Below are positions 1,101-10,521 of a stretch of 11,934 bases of DNA, in pieces. Made by a program: the position numbers and the translations under genes. Origin of the DNA: a bacterium (GTDB taxonomy: Bacteria; B130-G9); contig JAGHCW010000214.1 in assembly GCA_021160245.1 (NCBI GenBank), positions 1-11,934 on the forward strand. The letters run 5' to 3'. Position 1 is the stretch's first letter, and each line of letters opens with the position of its first letter. The notes below the pieces were generated by a model that made no database searches, was not told where the DNA came from, and was given only the letters and a program-made list of their open reading frames with translations.

Positions 1101-3014
1101 CTACCGTATGAGCTTTCGGAAGATGACGACGATGAGAGCCGCGTTCAGAATAATGCCCAACAGCCCCTCGACCATCGCCAGCCCTGCCGCCCAGTCAATT
1201 GCGCGCACGTCGCCATAGCCCACGGTCGCATACGTTATCACGCTGAAGTAGAGTGAGTTGAGGTAGCCCCAGTCAAATGGCAGTGGTTCACATTTGAGGA
1301 TTAACTTCTTCTCTGAAAGGGCGAGCCAGAACAGGCCTGAGCAGCCGAAGATGACAATCAGAATCGTGGCGATCAGATTCTTAAGCCTGACGCCATATCC
1401 AAAAATCCACTTGCTGACCACCCATTTGCCAGACCGCGGGAAGCCAAATAGCAGGACTGCGATGAGAATGGAGATTATAATAGCTGAGCCATCCACGAAG
1501 AATCTTAGGCCCGGGCTGACATACGATCCTCCCGCGAATTCAAACCATGCAGGGAAGGCAATGTTGATCGCTGCCGCGAGAGCAAAAAACAGAAAGAGGG
1601 GTCGCCAGCGTTTCGTTGTCATACGCGCGCACTCCGATGCCCACCAGTGCGCATCGTCCTCATCATCGTACGCGCCTCGCTTGCGGAATTGCTCCTTCAA
1701 CCAGGCATATTGCTTTCGTGCCTGGTCCCAATCCTTCTTTCGGTGCGGCTCGATAATAGGCCGTGGGTCTGATCCGTCCGATGGTTTGAGGTCCCCGAAG
1801 TCGCACACAAGCTCGCCCTGCACGAGCGGGTCGTTGAAGTTGACGCTATAGACCCCACGCTTGCTCTGCTGCCATTCCTCAAGCGTTTTAATCTGCTTGT
1901 TGAGATCACTCGCCTTTTCGAATTCGTGCTTCGGGTCCCTCGCTTGCCTTTTGACTTTCATAAGGTCTTTCCGTTTCTGGAGCAAAACACTGAACGTCTC
2001 CAGCTTGGATTGCAGGTCCTTTTGCTGCTTTGGAGATGAGAGCTTCAAGCTCTCCGCGAAAACGGCTAGCGTGAGGTTGATTTTTCCCACAGCCAGATCG
2101 CTCATGTTGCACAGCTTCTCAAACCGAGAATCCTTCAGATTCAATGAAAGAGACGTCGCATAGTCGAAATGAGCATTGCCGACAAACTTTGTGAGTTTGA
2201 AGGTCGCGTCATCGATGAAGGTGGCTTTGTTGAAGTTCGATTCCAAGGCGAAGCTCGCACCGTCAAATACCGCCTCTCGTATGAAGGTTGCCTCCGCAAA
2301 TTCCGCAAGAGCGTTGAACTTGGCGAGCTCGAAGTCCGCTTTTTTGTGAAAGATCGCATGTCTGAAGGTTGCGCCATCAGCAAATCTGCTTCTGAAGAAC
2401 GCGCTTTGGCCGATGAACCTCGCGTGCCAGAATTCCGCAGCTCCCCCAAAAACAATATCATTGAAGAATACGTCATTGAAGAATACGGTAGGAGCCGGAT
2501 CGATTGCCGACAGTTTCATTCCACCTTGGAGAATGAGTCCACCATGTTCGCGCCCCGCCTTGATGCTGCAGCCCAGTTCGATCGCACCAATGAGACAGCT
2601 TCTCAATTGAATCGCTTGCTTCAGGAGGGGCCCTTTATATTTCTTGCCGTTAATCTCAATTGAGCCCTTTGGCAAGAATTCGCCGGTCTTGTGTTTTTTT
2701 TCCGCCTCCGCAAGTGCCTCGACGCTCAGCGCCTCGATGTAGTAGTTTTTTATAGCTTTGCCATTGAGAATCATCTTCGCGGCTTTCAGGGCTGTGAGAT
2801 AGCCATAGCGCACATCCGGATAGCGCTCGTACGTGACCCGCTTGATCTCTTTGCCCGCGTTGTCGAGCTCGATGTGGAGCACAACCTTGCGGCCATCAGA
2901 ATCAGTGTGCAGAAGCTCTGTTTTCTCCAAGCGGCGCCTCGCGTCATTTTGTGTCCTTTGGAACAGGATAATATCAAGAGGGGAGAGAATGTGAAAGGAA
3001 AAGTAGGGGCGCAT
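1101..3014 (-). CDS. Pentapeptide-repeat membrane protein with a C-terminal potassium-channel-type pore domain
   Basis: Likely an ion-conducting membrane protein of unknown stimulus. Numbering from the ATG at 3014 gives 637 residues. Residues 195-283 form a Phe/Ala repeat in which Phe recurs alternately every 5 and 6 residues (ATF, ADF, AKF, AEF, ATF, AVF, ASF), the 11-residue pattern of the Pentapeptide_3 type. Residues about 325-385 are Lys/Glu/Gln-rich and probably helical. An aromatic, acidic segment (YAWLKEQFRKRGAYDDEDD, 436-454) leads to four hydrophobic helices at about 471-488, 510-525, 545-566 and 609-633. Between the last two lies the selectivity filter TVGYGD (597-602), so helices 3 and 4 make an Ion_trans_2 pore. 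No RCK or cyclic-nucleotide domain is seen. The start is uncertain: ATG 3014 lacks a Shine-Dalgarno; TTG at 2930 has GAGG six bases upstream and lies just downstream of a good promoter match; the open frame extending to 3239 runs antisense into recQ and is unlikely. Divergent from recQ. Confidence 0.85.
   Translation of the reverse strand: MRPYFSFHILSPLDIILFQRTQNDARRRLEKTELLHTDSDGRKVVLHIELDNAGKEIKRVTYERYPDVRYGYLTALKAAKMILNGKAIKNYYIEALSVEALAEAEKKHKTGEFLPKGSIEINGKKYKGPLLKQAIQLRSCLIGAIELGCSIKAGREHGGLILQGGMKLSAIDPAPTVFFNDVFFNDIVFGGAAEFWHARFIGQSAFFRSRFADGATFRHAIFHKKADFELAKFNALAEFAEATFIREAVFDGASFALESNFNKATFIDDATFKLTKFVGNAHFDYATSLSLNLKDSRFEKLCNMSDLAVGKINLTLAVFAESLKLSSPKQQKDLQSKLETFSVLLQKRKDLMKVKRQARDPKHEFEKASDLNKQIKTLEEWQQSKRGVYSVNFNDPLVQGELVCDFGDLKPSDGSDPRPIIEPHRKKDWDQARKQYAWLKEQFRKRGAYDDEDDAHWWASECARMTTKRWRPLFLFFALAAAINIAFPAWFEFAGGSYVSPGLRFFVDGSAIIISILIAVLLFGFPRSGKWVVSKWIFGYGVRLKNLIATILIVIFGCSGLFWLALSEKKLILKCEPLPFDWGYLNSLYFSVITYATVGYGDVRAIDWAAGLAMVEGLLGIILNAALIVVIFRKLIR
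2458..2487. repeat. Perfect 15-bp tandem duplication in the pentapeptide-repeat gene
   Basis: TCATTGAAGAATACG occurs at 2458-2472 and again, identical, at 2473-2487. On the minus strand it encodes VFFND VFFND (residues 177-186 from ATG 3014), so the duplication is exactly one pentapeptide unit and keeps the frame. All 15 bases match, including third codon positions, whereas neighbouring units of the repeat domain are well diverged, which points to a recent slippage duplication. Confidence 0.95.
2968..2995 (-). promoter_or_regulatory. Candidate sigma70-type promoter for the channel-like gene
   Basis: On the minus strand, TTCACA (complement of 2990-2995) is followed after 16 bases by TATTAT (complement of 2968-2973). 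Each hexamer matches five of six bases of TTGACA and TATAAT. Transcription would begin near 2961, downstream of the ATG at 3014, and would favour the TTG start at 2930 or an out-of-frame ATG at 2947. This is a pattern match without experimental support. Confidence 0.45.
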
Positions 3015-3058
3015 TGCTGGACGCCCGAATTCTGGCCTGCGGGTCGATGCACATAGGC

Positions 3059-3099: not shown

Positions 3100-6018
3100 A
3101 TGATTGAGATTGACCGCGCGAAACAATTGCTTGCCGAGAAATTCGGCCACGCCGACTTCCTTGCTGGGCAGGAGGAGTCGCTTGGGGCGATACTCTCTGG
3201 CCGGAATCTGCTGGTCGTTATGCCGACCGGCAGCGGCAAATCGCTTCTGTATCAGCTGCCGGCGCTCATGCAGGATGGCCTTACGATCGTCGTATCACCC
3301 CTTATCTCGCTGATGAAAGACCAGGTCGATGACCTCGAGCGACGGGGGATTGCGGCCACTTTCGTCAACTCGAGCCTCAGCCTCAGCGAGCAGCAGTCGC
3401 GCCTCAATCTCTGTGCGTGCAATAGCATCAAACTCCTATACGTTGCCCCAGAGCGATTCCGAAACAAGCATTTTATTGAGGCGCTGCGCAATGCGACCAT
3501 CAGCCGAATAGCAATCGATGAGGCGCACTGCATTTCGGAATGGGGGCACGATTTTCGGCCGGATTACTTGCGGCTCAAGGAGTTTCGGACGCGGATGGGC
3601 TCGCCCAGCATAACTGCCCTTACCGCCACTGCCACGCCGAAGGTGCGTCAGGACATCATCGAGTCTCTGGGGCTTGAGCCAGACGACGTTGATGTCCATG
3701 TTCGGGGCTTTGATCGCCCGAATCTCATCTTGAGCGTTCAGGAGTTCTCGGCGAGGGATAGAAAGGACGAGTTTGTGCTTCGATACGTCCGCGAACACGA
3801 GGGCTCGACGATAATCTATACGTCAACGCGAGGCGACGCGGAGAAACTGGGCGATGCCTTGAAAGCCGTCGAGCCGCGCACCGCCGTCTATCACGCCGGG
3901 CTCGAGGCGGATACTCGCGCTAGGTTTCAGGACAGGTTTATGAGCGGCAAGGATCGAGTTGTGGCCGCGACGAATGCCTTTGGGATGGGCATTGACAAGG
4001 CCGACATTCGTTCCGTTATTCATTACAACTACCCCGCGTCGATTGAGCAGTACTATCAGGAAATCGGTCGCGCAGGTCGCGATGGGAAGACGTCGCATTG
4101 CGTTCTGCTGCACTCATTGTCCGATCGGGGTCTTCGGGAGTTTTTCATTGGACTAAATTACCCGGGACCGGACCTTGTGAAGAGGGTTTATGAGGAGCTT
4201 TTCAGCATAGACGAGAATCCGGTCATGCTGACTTACAAGGAGATTGCGGCTCGCTGCGGGCCGAAGGTCAAAGATGGCCACGTCAGCGTTGCGGTTAGGC
4301 TTCTTGATGGCGCGGGGATAACAAAGGCCCTCTCTGGGGAGCCGAAGGTCGCCATAATCCTGAATAAGCCGGCCTCGAAGGTGAGGGCAAAGCTGCGCGG
4401 CCCTGTTCAGATTCAAGTCCTTGAGGGGCTTTCCGCTACGGGTGACATCGAGAAGCCCGGTCGTTTTGAGGCGAGTCTGCATCAACTAAGTCGCGCCTCA
4501 GGCCTCTCGGAGGACCAGATCCGCCGGGCGCTTCGAGTTATGAGCAGCGATGGCGTTATTGAGTACGAGCCGCCCTTCCGGGGAAGAGGCGTTGAGAAAC
4601 TGGCGAATCCGCCGCCTTTTGACAAAGCCCAAATCGATTGGAATCGGCAGATGTTGCTACGAGGCGCGGAGAATCAGAAGCTCGAGGAGATGGAGCAGTA
4701 TATCAACTGCGATGGCTGTCGGCGCGAGTTCATCCTGCGCTATTTCGGGGAGAAGGAGAGCTTCCGCTGTGGGACTTGTGACCGCTGCAATCCGACGATG
4801 AATGTCACTGGCAAATGCGTTGTCCTGACCGAGCATCCGAAGATCGCCAAGGCCATTCTTCTCTGCATTCGCCATCTGAGCTTCCCGCTGGGCGCAACGA
4901 AAGTCATCGAGATAATTACAGGCGCTCGGAGCAAGGACTTGATCAAGTGGGACCTTCAGCGCAATCCGGTTTATGGGCTGGCGCCTGCGGATAAGAAGAC
5001 GATTAAGAAGGTTCTTGACGATCTCGTTACCGAGCGCTATCTCAAACGAGCGGGGCAGCCTGATAGGCCAGTTCTCGCCTTGACTATGCAGGGCCGAGAT
5101 GCGGTCTCATCGATGAGCGTCAATGACCTGAGCGCCCGGAAATCGCCGTCATCGCCGAAGCCGCCGCCACGACTTCAGCAGCCTGAGAATGACCATGCGA
5201 AGCTCACGCCAGATGAAGAGAATATTGTCGCAGCCGTGCTCAGGTGCATCAATGGCCTCGGCAGACGGCGAGGCGCTAAAGGGATCACAGAGGTTCTTAC
5301 CGGCTCGAAGGCCAAGTGGATAGAGCCCGCGGGGGCCGACAAACTCGAAGTGTATGGCTGTCTGGATGTGTCGCGGGAGCACATCAAGCGCATCATCGGC
5401 TCAATGCTTCAGGAGGAGTTGCTCCGCAATGCCGGCAACGATTTTTATCCCGTGCTTGAATTAACTGGCGCCGGCCGAGTGGAACTTGAGCGTCTGACTG
5501 GAGAGGCAGAGCCGCCGATGAGCGATGAAGCTGACGACAATGGGGAGGAGCTTGTTGAGATGAAAGCTGAGCCACTTGAAGCGCAGCCATCGAATGACGC
5601 TGGTGGATTACTTGATCACGCAATACTTGAGTTGCTGCATTCTCCGGCCGATCGGGCGAAGACTATATTGCCGGAGCTCCGTTTGTTTCATCCGAAGGAG
5701 CTTGCACAACGCTTATTCCAAGCGTTTCAGACTCATCAAGAGGACCGTGCTCACGCCCGTGTTGTATGGGTGCTTGGCGAATTGTGCGGCCAATACGCCC
5801 TCAGCTTCCTTGTCGATTGCGCCTCGAGTGATGAGGCAAACATCCGCCAGCTAGCAGCGTCGGCGCTGGGCAAGATTGCCAAGGGCGTTTATTCTGACGG
5901 AAGGTCTATTGCGCCCGACATGATGCGAGCGAGAGAGTCGCTGGTTCGGTTGACGAGGGATCTCGAAACTCAGGTGCGTCAATACGCGGAGAATTCTCTT
6001 AGGGAGTTTCCCGATTGA
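3100..6018 (+). CDS. recQ: RecQ-family ATP-dependent DNA helicase with insertion, two RQC modules and a helical C-terminal tail
   Basis: A 3'-5' DNA helicase for recombination and fork repair, by family knowledge. Numbering from ATG 3100 (972 residues): FGHADFLAGQEE (motif 0, 15-26), TGSGKS (Walker A, 43-48), DEAH (140-143), TATAT (175-179), and QEIGRAGRDG (motif VI, 320-329). Zinc ligands C540, C557, C560 and C563 keep the E. coli C-x16-C-x2-C-x2-C spacing; an extra C537 is present. Between motif VI and the first zinc cysteine there are about 213 residues against about 51 in E. coli RecQ, an insertion of about 160. Two similar RQC-type winged-helix modules follow at about 578-668 and 705-796, joined by a Pro/Ser-rich linker. 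After an acidic stretch, 835-972 is helical and HEAT-like. No HRDC domain is evident. E. coli RecQ is about 610 residues. I chose ATG 3100 because residues from MIEIDRAKQLL fit the family N-terminus; an upstream TTG at 3070 also lacks a Shine-Dalgarno. The helicase call is secure; the tail assignment is inference. Confidence 0.97.
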   Translation: MIEIDRAKQLLAEKFGHADFLAGQEESLGAILSGRNLLVVMPTGSGKSLLYQLPALMQDGLTIVVSPLISLMKDQVDDLERRGIAATFVNSSLSLSEQQSRLNLCACNSIKLLYVAPERFRNKHFIEALRNATISRIAIDEAHCISEWGHDFRPDYLRLKEFRTRMGSPSITALTATATPKVRQDIIESLGLEPDDVDVHVRGFDRPNLILSVQEFSARDRKDEFVLRYVREHEGSTIIYTSTRGDAEKLGDALKAVEPRTAVYHAGLEADTRARFQDRFMSGKDRVVAATNAFGMGIDKADIRSVIHYNYPASIEQYYQEIGRAGRDGKTSHCVLLHSLSDRGLREFFIGLNYPGPDLVKRVYEELFSIDENPVMLTYKEIAARCGPKVKDGHVSVAVRLLDGAGITKALSGEPKVAIILNKPASKVRAKLRGPVQIQVLEGLSATGDIEKPGRFEASLHQLSRASGLSEDQIRRALRVMSSDGVIEYEPPFRGRGVEKLANPPPFDKAQIDWNRQMLLRGAENQKLEEMEQYINCDGCRREFILRYFGEKESFRCGTCDRCNPTMNVTGKCVVLTEHPKIAKAILLCIRHLSFPLGATKVIEIITGARSKDLIKWDLQRNPVYGLAPADKKTIKKVLDDLVTERYLKRAGQPDRPVLALTMQGRDAVSSMSVNDLSARKSPSSPKPPPRLQQPENDHAKLTPDEENIVAAVLRCINGLGRRRGAKGITEVLTGSKAKWIEPAGADKLEVYGCLDVSREHIKRIIGSMLQEELLRNAGNDFYPVLELTGAGRVELERLTGEAEPPMSDEADDNGEELVEMKAEPLEAQPSNDAGGLLDHAILELLHSPADRAKTILPELRLFHPKELAQRLFQAFQTHQEDRAHARVVWVLGELCGQYALSFLVDCASSDEANIRQLAASALGKIAKGVYSDGRSIAPDMMRARESLVRLTRDLETQVRQYAENSLREFPD

Positions 6019-6272: not shown

Positions 6273-6278
6273 AGGAGG
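6273..6278 (+). promoter_or_regulatory. Strong Shine-Dalgarno fixing the lipoprotein start
   Basis: AGGAGG lies exactly six bases before the ATG at 6285. It selects this start over the in-frame TTG at 6201, which would add 28 residues ahead of a good signal peptide. The downstream protease gene has the identical arrangement: AGGAGG at 7768-7773, six bases, ATG at 7780. Confidence 0.85.
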
Positions 6279-6284
6279 AGTTGC

Positions 6285-7598
6285 ATGAGAAGGCCAATCT
6301 GGAGCTTGTTGGCGATAGCTTTCGTCGTTGTGGGGTTCTGCGGCTGCTCAGGTCACAAGGATATCGTGGTTTCAGAGGCCGAGATACTTGACGAGTCGAT
6401 TCCGCCGTCAACGGACATTGAGTATGTGGCGGTCTATAGGGATGTCGAGGCGCCATTTCCGCGGGGCATAAAGGACAGGAACCGGGCCAAGAAGGAGGCG
6501 ATTCGCCTGGCGGTCTTGGAGCTTAAGATGAAGGGATTTCTTGAGGCGGCTGATGAAGTTCGCTTCTCGCTCGCGCAGGGTATGAACGATGAGGAATATG
6601 ACCGGGCGGTCAAGAAGGCCAACAAGGATTTCCAGACGTTCATCAACGATTGGAAGATCATAAAACAGGAGGTTCCGAGGAAGCGCGCCGTTGTTATCTT
6701 GACGGTCTATTTCAAGATCGATAAGGCGAAGCTCCGCGAAGCTCTCATGACCGGGCGAGCGATCATAAATCGGGCGAAATACAAGACTTACGTTGAGCTT
6801 TATTGGAATGTTCCTGGCAGAGACATCAGCCCTGAGATATGCAACACGTTGATCGAAAATGTCGAGAATTATTTTGCCAGGGCAGGCTATAATGTTGTGC
6901 AGTTCGAGCGGATTAAGGGCAAGCTCGTGAGGATGCTAAAGGATTTGGGTGAGAACACGGACGACCTCTATTCACAGGACGAGCTCAAGCGGTTCAAGGC
7001 GAATCTGGAGCTTCGGAACATAGACAGCAGATTTGTGAACGGCAAGCAGATACTGGGGGACTACGCCGATCTTCTCATCGGTGTAACGATCAATAACGTC
7101 GAGGTAACTCCCGACATGATGCTCAGCGTGCGCATCACAGTCAACGCGACGCTGTTTGAGCGAAACGACTGGGTCTCATTGGCCTCGCGCAACGCAAGCG
7201 GAATGGTCCCATACGACGGTGGCGCGGAGAGTTTCTTTCGGGTGGCGGAACGAGTAGCGCTGAATGTATGCGAGGCGTTGGAGCCTGGCGTTGCGGACGG
7301 CATCGCTAGACGTGAGGCGATTTACAGAGCACAGGTGACTGCCGCGAGGGATTTCACGTTGGTCTTTAAGGGTATCAGCAGCAACGAGTTCCGGCAGATC
7401 AACAACAGGCTTATGGGTTCCGATTTGCTTGCCCACAAAGGCTCAGACGCCCAAGCTCGCAAAGTCTATGTTCAGTATAGGGGCACGAAGGATGCGCTGG
7501 CCGGTGTTGTTGAGTCGGTTTTACGAGGCGCGGGCTTCAGCTTCGGGCCGCCTGAATACTCGGCAGACGACAATACGATAGTATTCCGCAAGCAATAG
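6285..7598 (+). CDS. Predicted envelope lipoprotein carrying one copy of the module repeated in the next gene
   Basis: I do not recognise a named family. The 437-residue product begins MRRPIWSLLAIAFVVVGFCG, a basic start and hydrophobic core ending at FCGC, so C21 is the likely lipidated cysteine; phenylalanine at -3 makes the lipobox imperfect. Residues 68-80 (AKKEAIRLAVLEL) begin a helical segment reminiscent of FlgT- or LPP20-type lipoproteins, a loose resemblance only. The middle (about 168-335) has an alpha/beta segment with ADLLIGVTINNVE at 261-273. The last 80 residues (357-437) match the repeat of the downstream protease: DFTLVFKGI, YRGT and NTIVFRKQ here against KLIITDL, YRGD and KTIVYRSQ in its second copy. 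The gene lies 266 bases after recQ and 181 before the protease gene, same strand. I infer that the product is membrane-anchored on the periplasmic side and a structural partner of the protease; the catalytic role, if any, is unknown. Confidence 0.75.
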   Translation: MRRPIWSLLAIAFVVVGFCGCSGHKDIVVSEAEILDESIPPSTDIEYVAVYRDVEAPFPRGIKDRNRAKKEAIRLAVLELKMKGFLEAADEVRFSLAQGMNDEEYDRAVKKANKDFQTFINDWKIIKQEVPRKRAVVILTVYFKIDKAKLREALMTGRAIINRAKYKTYVELYWNVPGRDISPEICNTLIENVENYFARAGYNVVQFERIKGKLVRMLKDLGENTDDLYSQDELKRFKANLELRNIDSRFVNGKQILGDYADLLIGVTINNVEVTPDMMLSVRITVNATLFERNDWVSLASRNASGMVPYDGGAESFFRVAERVALNVCEALEPGVADGIARREAIYRAQVTAARDFTLVFKGISSNEFRQINNRLMGSDLLAHKGSDAQARKVYVQYRGTKDALAGVVESVLRGAGFSFGPPEYSADDNTIVFRKQ

Positions 7599-7779
7599 GA
7601 TTGCGGCGTTCGGCAGAAACGGAACCAGACGAATTCTCCATAGTTCGCTCTCTGGCTGATGCAGCGGAGAGGAAGACAGAAAGGGAATGAGGATTTCACG
7701 CTGTGAAGGGGCAGCCGCGGGCACGCGATTTTAGCAGTGCGCGCAGTGCGGGCCCGGGCGTCAAGAGAGGAGGAGCGAG

Positions 7780-10521
7780 ATGAGAGCTATTGAGCAGACC
7801 GTAATCACGGCAATGGTTTGTCTGCTTTTTTGTGCTTCTTTATGCGCGGCGGAGAGAGATGTCATGCTTTTCGTGGGCGAGCGCGCGCTTGAGAGAGCGG
7901 CTACACCGCTAATCGCCGAGCTGCTGGCCATCAAACCATCTGCGATTGAGGCGGACTACGACAAGAGGAAGTTCATCACTGACGAGGGGACGCGACTCGC
8001 CTTTTCGGATGTTTTCACCGACGGCTCGGTAAAGGACTCGGCCTTCTTCCGCGCGATCCGCGATCAATATCGCCCCGACATTCTCGTCCTCCTGTGGGTC
8101 TCACGCGAGGGAAAGAATGAGTACAAGGCCTATGGTATAGAGAAGCAGCAGATCACGCTCCGGTTAAGGACCATCGACGCGAAGAATGGCAAGGTGATCG
8201 TCGATGAGACGGCAAGCCATGAGACCTCATTTGGCAAGGATACATCGGGCGACGATGAAGCGAGAGAAAGGCTGCTTGCGGATGCGGTTGCGGAGTTTGA
8301 TACGAAGAAACTGCGCCGGGAGCTGAGCTCTTACTTCAAGAGCTCGACAGGCGCCGCCGGGCGGTTCAAACTGATCATCAGGAAGATCGACCAGAAGGAG
8401 TATTTCGCCAAGAGAGGCGAATTCCTGGAGATAGCCCGTATGGCCGGAGCAACGGGTCGCCTCATCGACAGCTATAATAAGTCAGGGCTCGAACTGACTA
8501 TACGAGGCGATTGTGGGCCGGACTTCGACGGTTTCTATCGCTCGCTCAATTGGGCTGCCACATCAAAAAAGACGTTTTATGACTTCGATATTGATCGAGG
8601 CGAGGTCGGCTCCGAGATTGTGCTTACGAAACTGTTGCCGAGGCGCAAGAAGCTGATCATAACGGACCTCGCGCCGGAGTGGTATCACGGCAAGCTGGCG
8701 GCCTACAAGGAGTCGTTGCTTGCACAGGAGGGCCTCTCGGACCTTAAATTCCGCTATGTTGAGGGCGAAGGGGACGAGAGGGCGGCAACAGCAGTTTTCA
8801 TCTTCACATACCGAGGCGATCTGCCGGCCTTTGAGGAGAAGCTCTGGGCAACTCTGAAGTCATCCGGCAAGGTGGCGAAGAGAGAACTAGTGTCCATCTC
8901 GAGCAAGACAATCGTCTATCGGTCTCAGTACGTGCCCGGAGACGAGTCCGGCATACACCTAGTCTTCAACAACATCTCGCCGGATAATTTCCGCCGTGTG
9001 GGGACGCGACTCGACCGCATCGTGAAGGGATTGAAAGTTCGGAACTTGACCAAAACCTACGAGCCTCTGCTCTTCAGTCTGTCCTACAGGTTTGACGTTG
9101 ACATCAGTCCGCTTGATGTGGACACGACTTTGTGGTCTGAGATTAGCAGGGACGATGCGTTGAAGGACATTGTTCAGGACTATACCGAGGGCGGGCTAAT
9201 TGCGTTTTATTGCTGGGAGGAGCCGGATTGGAGGCTCTATGTGAACCTTCAAGTCAAGAGCCTTAGCCCTATTGACTACTCTCAGAACGGTCGGGCCCTT
9301 ATCAGCATCGTTCGAGCAGTCAAGGGCGTGAAACGTCTGACACCGGCGTACTCGGAGGACACGAGGACGCTCACGATGGCTCTCGTCTTCTCCGGCACAA
9401 CCGTTTATCCAATTGACGACGCAATCTGGGAGGGCGTCAAGCAGTATCCCGGACTCTCCAAGCTCGCAATGGGCGCCATCACGCCGAGTCAGCTCACTTA
9501 CTTCTTTTCCGGCGAGGGGAAGGCTGGTCAGTATGTCTCGGTCCTGATGAAGAACGTAACGGGCCGTGATTACAAGAAAGTGTCGAGCCAGTTTGCTCAG
9601 ATTCTTCGTAAGATAGATGGGACGCGGGATGTTCGGTATTCGTACCAATATCGAGCGAGAATGGCGACTTTTGAGCTCAAATATGACGGCAAGACTCTCT
9701 TCGATCTTGATGACGCAATTCAGCGGGCGATGGCGGCTGAGCCTCTATTTGTGCATACAGCGAAGGGGCCGTCCATCAATAATCGCTTTGTCTATTACTA
9801 CTACGACTATCCGGTTGAGCAGGGCGCGGCCGCCGGCCTGGAAGCGGGGCTTGAGGCGGCTCTTCCCGACCTGGAACTGCGAGCGGGGGTATCCGGTCTT
9901 GTCGAGCGCTATGACCCCTGTGTTGTGAAGGTGTTATGCCACGACGAAGCAGGCAAGTTCATAGGGCACGGCTCGGGATTCTTCGTGGACCCGGAGGGTT
10001 ACATTCTCACGAATGCGCATGTCATTAAGGATGTGCCCCGTCTAACCGTTCAGACGTTCGACGGCGTGAGGTATCAAGTGCTCATCATCAAGCGAGACGA
10101 TGATCTTGATCTCGCTCTGATAAAGCTCAAGACACCGAAATCGGATTTCCCGTCGGTCGCCATAGGAGACAGCAGACGCGCCAAGAAAGGCGAGAAGATA
10201 CTCATTATCGGTACCCCTCTTAGCACCGAATATGAGCACAGCGCCGTAACCGGGGTGATAAGCGGAACTGACCGACAGAGCGGCAGATTGCAGACCTCGG
10301 CGCCGACCTATTCAGGGAACAGCGGATCGCCCGTGATCTCATGTCTAACCGGTAGGGTAATTGGCGTCCATGTCGCCTCACCAGTCATGCAGGGCGAGGT
10401 CGCGATACGTACTAAAGAAGGCCTAAAGGAGACGAACCTCGTCGCCAAGAGTCGCGCCGAGTCGATGGGGTTTGTTATTCCGGTGAACTACGCAAGGCAG
10501 CTTCTTGAGATGATCAAATAG
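7780..10521 (+). CDS. Secreted trypsin-like (HtrA/DegP-type) serine protease with about five tandem N-terminal repeat modules
   Basis: A 913-residue exported protein. Residues 1-24 are a Sec signal peptide (cleavage probably after CAA, 22-24). Residues 28-187 form an alpha/beta region including PDILVLLWVS, possibly related to the middle of the upstream lipoprotein. Residues 195-680 hold about five divergent modules starting near 195, 291, 392, 486 and 585, a period of about 94-101. Each shows a strand, a helix, two strands (such as FTYRGD or LKYDGK), a helix and a closing strand. Residues 710-913 are a chymotrypsin-fold protease: H747 in TNAHVIKD, D777 in DLDLALIK and S848 in SGNSGSPV form an intact triad, and GHGSGFFVDPEGYILTNAHV and MGFVIPVNYA are HtrA-like. 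No PDZ domain follows, unlike DegP or DegS. AGGAGG six bases before ATG supports the start. It probably works in the periplasm or at the cell surface; substrate unknown. The protease call is firm, the repeats are read by eye. Confidence 0.9.
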   Translation: MRAIEQTVITAMVCLLFCASLCAAERDVMLFVGERALERAATPLIAELLAIKPSAIEADYDKRKFITDEGTRLAFSDVFTDGSVKDSAFFRAIRDQYRPDILVLLWVSREGKNEYKAYGIEKQQITLRLRTIDAKNGKVIVDETASHETSFGKDTSGDDEARERLLADAVAEFDTKKLRRELSSYFKSSTGAAGRFKLIIRKIDQKEYFAKRGEFLEIARMAGATGRLIDSYNKSGLELTIRGDCGPDFDGFYRSLNWAATSKKTFYDFDIDRGEVGSEIVLTKLLPRRKKLIITDLAPEWYHGKLAAYKESLLAQEGLSDLKFRYVEGEGDERAATAVFIFTYRGDLPAFEEKLWATLKSSGKVAKRELVSISSKTIVYRSQYVPGDESGIHLVFNNISPDNFRRVGTRLDRIVKGLKVRNLTKTYEPLLFSLSYRFDVDISPLDVDTTLWSEISRDDALKDIVQDYTEGGLIAFYCWEEPDWRLYVNLQVKSLSPIDYSQNGRALISIVRAVKGVKRLTPAYSEDTRTLTMALVFSGTTVYPIDDAIWEGVKQYPGLSKLAMGAITPSQLTYFFSGEGKAGQYVSVLMKNVTGRDYKKVSSQFAQILRKIDGTRDVRYSYQYRARMATFELKYDGKTLFDLDDAIQRAMAAEPLFVHTAKGPSINNRFVYYYYDYPVEQGAAAGLEAGLEAALPDLELRAGVSGLVERYDPCVVKVLCHDEAGKFIGHGSGFFVDPEGYILTNAHVIKDVPRLTVQTFDGVRYQVLIIKRDDDLDLALIKLKTPKSDFPSVAIGDSRRAKKGEKILIIGTPLSTEYEHSAVTGVISGTDRQSGRLQTSAPTYSGNSGSPVISCLTGRVIGVHVASPVMQGEVAIRTKEGLKETNLVAKSRAESMGFVIPVNYARQLLEMIK
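8362..9795 (+). repeat. Protein-level tandem repeat: about five modules of 94-101 codons within the protease gene
   Basis: Modules begin at residues 195 (FKLIIRKID), 291 (KLIITDLAP), 392 (IHLVFNNIS), 486 (LYVNLQVKSL) and 585 (YVSVLMKNV). Each continues with an amphipathic helix and a strand such as LELTIRGD, VFIFTYRGD, LFSLSYRFD, LTMALVFSG or FELKYDGK, then a second helix. They are diverged at DNA level, so the duplication is old. A sixth copy ends the upstream lipoprotein (bases 7353-7598). The predicted beta-alpha-beta-beta-alpha-beta order suggests a ferredoxin-like or KH-like fold, which is inference. Confidence 0.7.

Follow-up and report, generated by a model that had tools for sequence, protein, structure and literature searches.

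The window, i.e. the whole stretch of DNA analysed here (11,934 nucleotides), comes from a genome of 3.43 Mb that is 95% complete. Between recQ and the convergent serS, it carries two co-oriented genes, a lipoprotein gene followed by the gene of a secreted protease, which are separated by a spacer of 181 bp (Table 1). When we carried out a pattern search for AGGAGG-6-ATG, both genes had this motif at their starts, and no further annotated start in the window, including those of folD and serS, shared it (0.13 expected by chance). The original prediction had pointed out the common orientation and the common start region of the two genes, and these features as well as the coordinates of the open reading frames held when checked. 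Upstream of the pair, the window encodes a pentapeptide-repeat protein that carries an Ion_trans_2 domain of the two-transmembrane K+ channel type as a C-terminal fusion (1101-3032, minus strand) and a RecQ-type helicase (3100-6018, plus strand) that contains two RQC stretches and ends in HEAT repeats, a tail unusual for RecQ. Flagellar, curli or Pel genes were not found in the window.

Table 1. Features of the lipoprotein gene and the protease gene (positions are those of the window)
Feature	Position	Strand	Evidence
AGGAGG-6-ATG start region, lipoprotein gene	6273..6287	+	Pattern search
Lipoprotein gene (437 aa; predicted signal peptide and lipobox Cys21)	6285..7598	+	ORF; hhalign vs. 78-sequence family
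N-terminal domain, residues ~60-155, FlgT_N/LPP20-like	6462..6749	+	Alignment with family
Middle domain, residues ~165-335, DUF6175/CsgG/PelC-like	6777..7289	+	Family alignment; weak Foldseek matches, low-confidence region
Shared module, one C-terminal copy, residues 354-437	7344..7595	+	Pairwise tests, profiles, AlphaFold pLDDT 81-93
AGGAGG-6-ATG start region, protease gene	7768..7782	+	Pattern search
Secreted serine protease gene (913 aa; predicted signal peptide ~residues 1-24; no lipobox by eye)	7780..10521	+	
N-terminal region of the protease, residues 25-190; may be the middle domain of the lipoprotein family	7852..8349	+	In-register alignment into M1
Module M1 (marginal), residues 196-284	8365..8631	+	
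Module M2, residues 291-383	8650..8928	+	
Module M3, residues 392-479	8953..9216	+	
Module M4, residues 488-577	9241..9510	+	Also AlphaFold
Module M5, residues 586-675	9535..9804	+	
Trypsin_2 domain, residues 731-863	9970..10368	+	Pfam, 108.9 bits vs. cut-off 27.6

The protein encoded by the second gene is a trypsin-like serine protease of HtrA type; it is predicted to be Sec-exported and lacks a PDZ domain. By visual inspection of the sequence, its catalytic triad is predicted to be intact (His747 in TNAHV, Asp777 in DLDLAL, Ser848 in GNSGSP). Only a short stretch follows the protease domain, and no PDZ match was obtained with Pfam at E-values up to 1. The Trypsin_2 score, the triad motifs, and the missing PDZ match are in line with the HtrA-like catalytic domain without PDZ that had originally been proposed. 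With the whole-protein model of Do/HtrA proteases (NCBIfam TIGR02037), the protein scored 105.1 bits, which is far below the cut-off of 416.2, and over its catalytic domain, it shares 41% identity with an ordinary HtrA encoded by the window genome. Further trypsin-type proteases of the window genome and its family mates comprise about 475-530 amino acids, which is ordinary HtrA size. PADLOC matches to LmuA and RT-Protease were set aside because only the trypsin domain was covered.

The first gene encodes a lipoprotein with a predicted signal peptide and a putative lipobox, the cysteine of which (Cys21) aligns with a near-invariant cysteine of a lipoprotein family. Pfam and NCBIfam scans of this protein gave nothing above cut-off: it stayed below the Pfam cut-off of DUF6175 (PF19672), which had no match in its own genome either, and there was no FlgT_N Pfam match. 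In profile–profile comparison, a 29-sequence alignment of the family matched the window lipoprotein with a probability of 94.4 (E 8.9e-8, 302 columns), and a 78-sequence family profile matched the whole protein with a probability of 96.0 (E 3.7e-9, 304 columns; hhalign). The latter profile scored 69.3, compared with a shuffle maximum of 22.9 (n = 200) and values of 19.9 or less for unrelated window proteins. As judged from its sequence, the window lipoprotein is related, with very strong divergence, to the DUF6175-type envelope lipoproteins, which form a widespread family. Since Pfam itself gives no detection, it is classed here as a distant homologue, and we do not count it among the members of this family.

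A module of 84-94 residues is common to both window proteins. The lipoprotein carries it once, at its C-terminus, and the protease contains it four times in clear form (residues 291-675) and once more as a marginal copy. Thus, of the "about five" copies originally proposed, four are solid and M1 is only marginal. Among the protease modules, pairwise z-values of about 15-18 (M4-M5) and of 5-6 (M3-M4 and M2-M4) were obtained, and the lipoprotein tail reached 4.5-6.2 with M2 and 4.1-5.2 with M3. When a profile built exclusively from the four protease modules (A3) was used for searching, the lipoprotein tail by itself was not genome-wide significant; in comparison with 2,000 shuffled versions of itself, it took third rank against the protease-module HMM (1-5 bits). 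In three other genomes, the same A3 profile picked out the very C-terminal end of proteins with 430-580 amino acids (per-genome E-values of 7e-10, 7e-6, and 3e-5); the first two matches are envelope proteins from other phyla. A profile of lipoproteins of other phyla (A7) matched A3 with a probability of 94.3 (E 1e-7), and the lipoprotein-family profile scored 36.3 with the protease array compared with a shuffled maximum of 20.9. Since the A3, A7, and family profiles link both proteins via other genomes, the homology of lipoprotein tail and protease modules is secured, and the resemblance that had been read from the two proteins was borne out by profile–profile comparison (probability 94.3-96, E 1e-7 to 3.7e-9). 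Among about 80 lipoprotein tails compared, that of the neighbour is the best match for M2 and M3. For M4 and M5, tails from lipoproteins of other phyla are better matches than that of the neighbour. This split fits either an ancient capture or a partial exchange.

The predicted folds point in the same direction. The AlphaFold model of M4, calculated with its three sister modules, had a pLDDT of 93.5 and a pTM of 0.84 and contained the element order strand-helix-strand-strand-helix-strand-strand. For the lipoprotein, which was modelled with 28 spirochaete relatives, the overall pLDDT was poor (57.8), and its tail reached 81-93 and showed the element order of M4. An alignment of the module with spirochaete tails (A9) was left out of the folding because helix 1 looked shifted. 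Ribosomal eL22 came out as the best PDB match of both the M4 model and the tail model (Z of about 8), so the two models resemble each other; such a Z-value indicates a common arrangement only and carries no information on function. Structure prediction of each protein had been proposed as a check, and the two models agree: the protease copy and the lipoprotein tail are predicted to adopt the same beta-alpha-beta-beta-alpha-beta fold. Outside the tail, Foldseek gave weak matches of the lipoprotein to GNA1162, FlgT, CsgG, and PelC (E 0.01-0.5) in a region with pLDDT values of 24-70. Direct phmmer queries of the PDB with the lipoprotein and with the module array yielded no useful match.

The regions ahead of the modules had also been suggested to be related in the two proteins. 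On its own, this resemblance is not significant, as 4 of 200 shuffles reached its score. When residues 25-290 of the protease were aligned in register with the middle domain of the lipoprotein family running into the module, a score of 23.9 was obtained and none of 200 shuffles reached it (maximum 19.5). Because of this in-register alignment, relatedness of the pre-module regions is modestly supported, and the N-terminal region of the protease may be of the DUF6175-like middle type.

Members of the lipoprotein family have an FlgT_N-like start, a DUF6175/CsgG-like middle, and one C-terminal alpha/beta module. Relatives of the window lipoprotein were found in 47 of 290 diverse genomes. An expanded A3 profile detected one C-terminal module, mostly in lipoproteins of about 440 amino acids, in 37 of 392 genomes of a single phylum, which is Spirochaetota according to the named relatives (including Treponema vincentii and T. 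putidum). Pfam recognized DUF6175 in 9 of 15 spirochaete family members (best E-value 5.8e-9), and one family relative (L070) passed the FlgT_N cut-off. No lipoprotein relative carried a second module copy, and no multi-module protein was found in about 780 other genomes. The module array had no match in the other genome contigs searched or in plasmids, and viral contigs matched neither the lipoprotein nor the protease. Around 48 spirochaete lipoprotein loci, we found no trypsin-like protease ORF within flanks of up to 6 kb; in 32 of 34 loci checked, the flanks measured 3 kb or more on either side, and the screening profile detects divergent HtrA domains including that of the window protease. 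In several other genomes, DUF6175-like genes occur as tandem pairs of adjacent paralogues (L064, L066, L067). In two relatives, the DUF6175-like lipoprotein gene is followed by that of a conserved 227-241-aa lipoprotein (L011 766-1491, L012 1771-2454), which looks LPP20-like by eye and, for the one scanned, gave no Pfam match.

Orthologues of the two window genes were searched for in 98 genomes, which included three family-level mates of the window genome and otherwise genomes matching it at domain rank at most. The window itself was the sole match, and the three family mates carry neither the lipoprotein gene nor the protease gene. Contamination was ruled out: the SerS of the window is 69% identical to that of the family mate G001, and the contig is therefore native. 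The serS neighbourhood of G001 was compared with that of the window to see whether the pair had been inserted into a conserved site; it differs, with an HDOD-like gene adjoining serS, and is therefore uninformative in this respect.

Module homology, the fold shared by the models, and the order of modules and protease domain are firm points, from which several explanations can be developed. The likeliest of them, to which we assign a probability of roughly 0.5, is that of an envelope protease whose position is set by an array of modules taken over from the lipoprotein family of DUF6175 type, with the neighbouring gene encoding a distant relative of this family. The protease would be exported and would work in the envelope, where the DUF6175-type lipoproteins sit. 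In its chain, what is probably a DUF6175-like domain would be followed by four or five tandem copies of the module, which arose by amplification, and then by the protease domain. Judged from this architecture, the array might form a rigid targeting stalk by which the protease is brought to an envelope assembly such as members of the lipoprotein family form. The specificity of the protease would then depend on where it is placed instead of on substrate tails being recognised by a PDZ domain, and the neighbouring lipoprotein would be one possible anchor. The joint presence of both genes on a native contig and their joint absence from the three family mates argue for this explanation. Against it speak the occurrence of the lipoprotein family without such a protease nearby, the failure to find any relative of the protease architecture, and the low confidence of the lipoprotein model outside the tail.

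Shared ancestry without shared function appears rather doubtful. Here, the protease would have captured DNA of a DUF6175-type module, its array would bind substrates of its own or cell-wall material, and the lipoprotein would be an unrelated housekeeping neighbour. Such a scenario is compatible with lipoprotein family members occurring alone and with the high divergence of the modules in both proteins, for which the 1-5 bits of the tail are an example, but it has to treat joint presence, joint absence in the family mates, and matching start regions as coincidence.

We are a little more sceptical about a dedicated two-component system as put forward in the original prediction, in which the single module of the lipoprotein would dock like-with-like on the array and would regulate or tether the protease. 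The adjacency and co-orientation of the genes, their identical strong ribosome-binding sites, their joint absence from the three family mates, and the resemblance of M2 and M3 to the neighbour's tail are what would be expected of such a system. However, 181 bp lie between the genes, and tails of other phyla resemble M4 and M5 more than the neighbour's tail does. In the survey of related genomes, the lipoprotein family was widespread and usually lacked such a protease. Its genes occurred singly at the loci inspected, a pattern that the original prediction had named as refuting, with the reservation that orthologues of the window's own genes were found nowhere else. A dedicated two-component system is not supported.

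Chance similarity of small alpha/beta domains, for instance to the ferredoxin-like porter subdomain of RND transporters, is very improbable and already largely refuted, since the independent profiles lie far above shuffles and unrelated window proteins and the folds of module and tail agree, even if the tail alone lacks genome-wide significance and one RND transporter matched the module profile at a borderline E of 0.006 (L013 ~1501-1683), which we take as fold-level chance similarity.

For the borrowed array, a more specific version can be formulated, according to which a PDZ-less envelope protease built from modules of DUF6175-type outer-membrane lipoproteins polymerises with or docks on those lipoproteins. 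We consider this version unlikely. If docking were true, an unstudied lipoprotein family would serve as docking platform for proteolysis; no paper mentioning DUF6175 was found in the literature searched. The module is unannotated and common at the C-termini of DUF6175-type lipoproteins, including those of Treponema, and it is now tied to a protein of known chemistry, so that the protease provides a starting point for identifying what the module binds. An HtrA-like protease with a recognition part other than PDZ might represent another way of targeting this enzyme class.

Comparison with known systems is consistent with the original statement that no named system has such a layout: none was described in the literature searched, and the architecture of the protease appears to be undescribed there. 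The window lipoprotein resembles the DUF6175 (PF19672) lipoproteins of Spirochaetota and other phyla in its size (about 440 amino acids), lipobox, domain order, and C-terminal module. In contrast to them, it lies below Pfam detection; these relatives have one module each, and the 48 spirochaete loci have no protease gene beside them. FlgT, CsgG, PelC, and GNA1162 lipoproteins are weak fold matches to its N-terminal and middle parts, a model region of low confidence. HtrA/DegP proteases carry one or two C-terminal PDZ domains. With this group (peptidase family S1C), the window protease shares predicted export, the Trypsin_2 domain, and the H/D/S triad motifs, but it is devoid of PDZ, and its protease domain is located C-terminally, behind an array of four to five modules.
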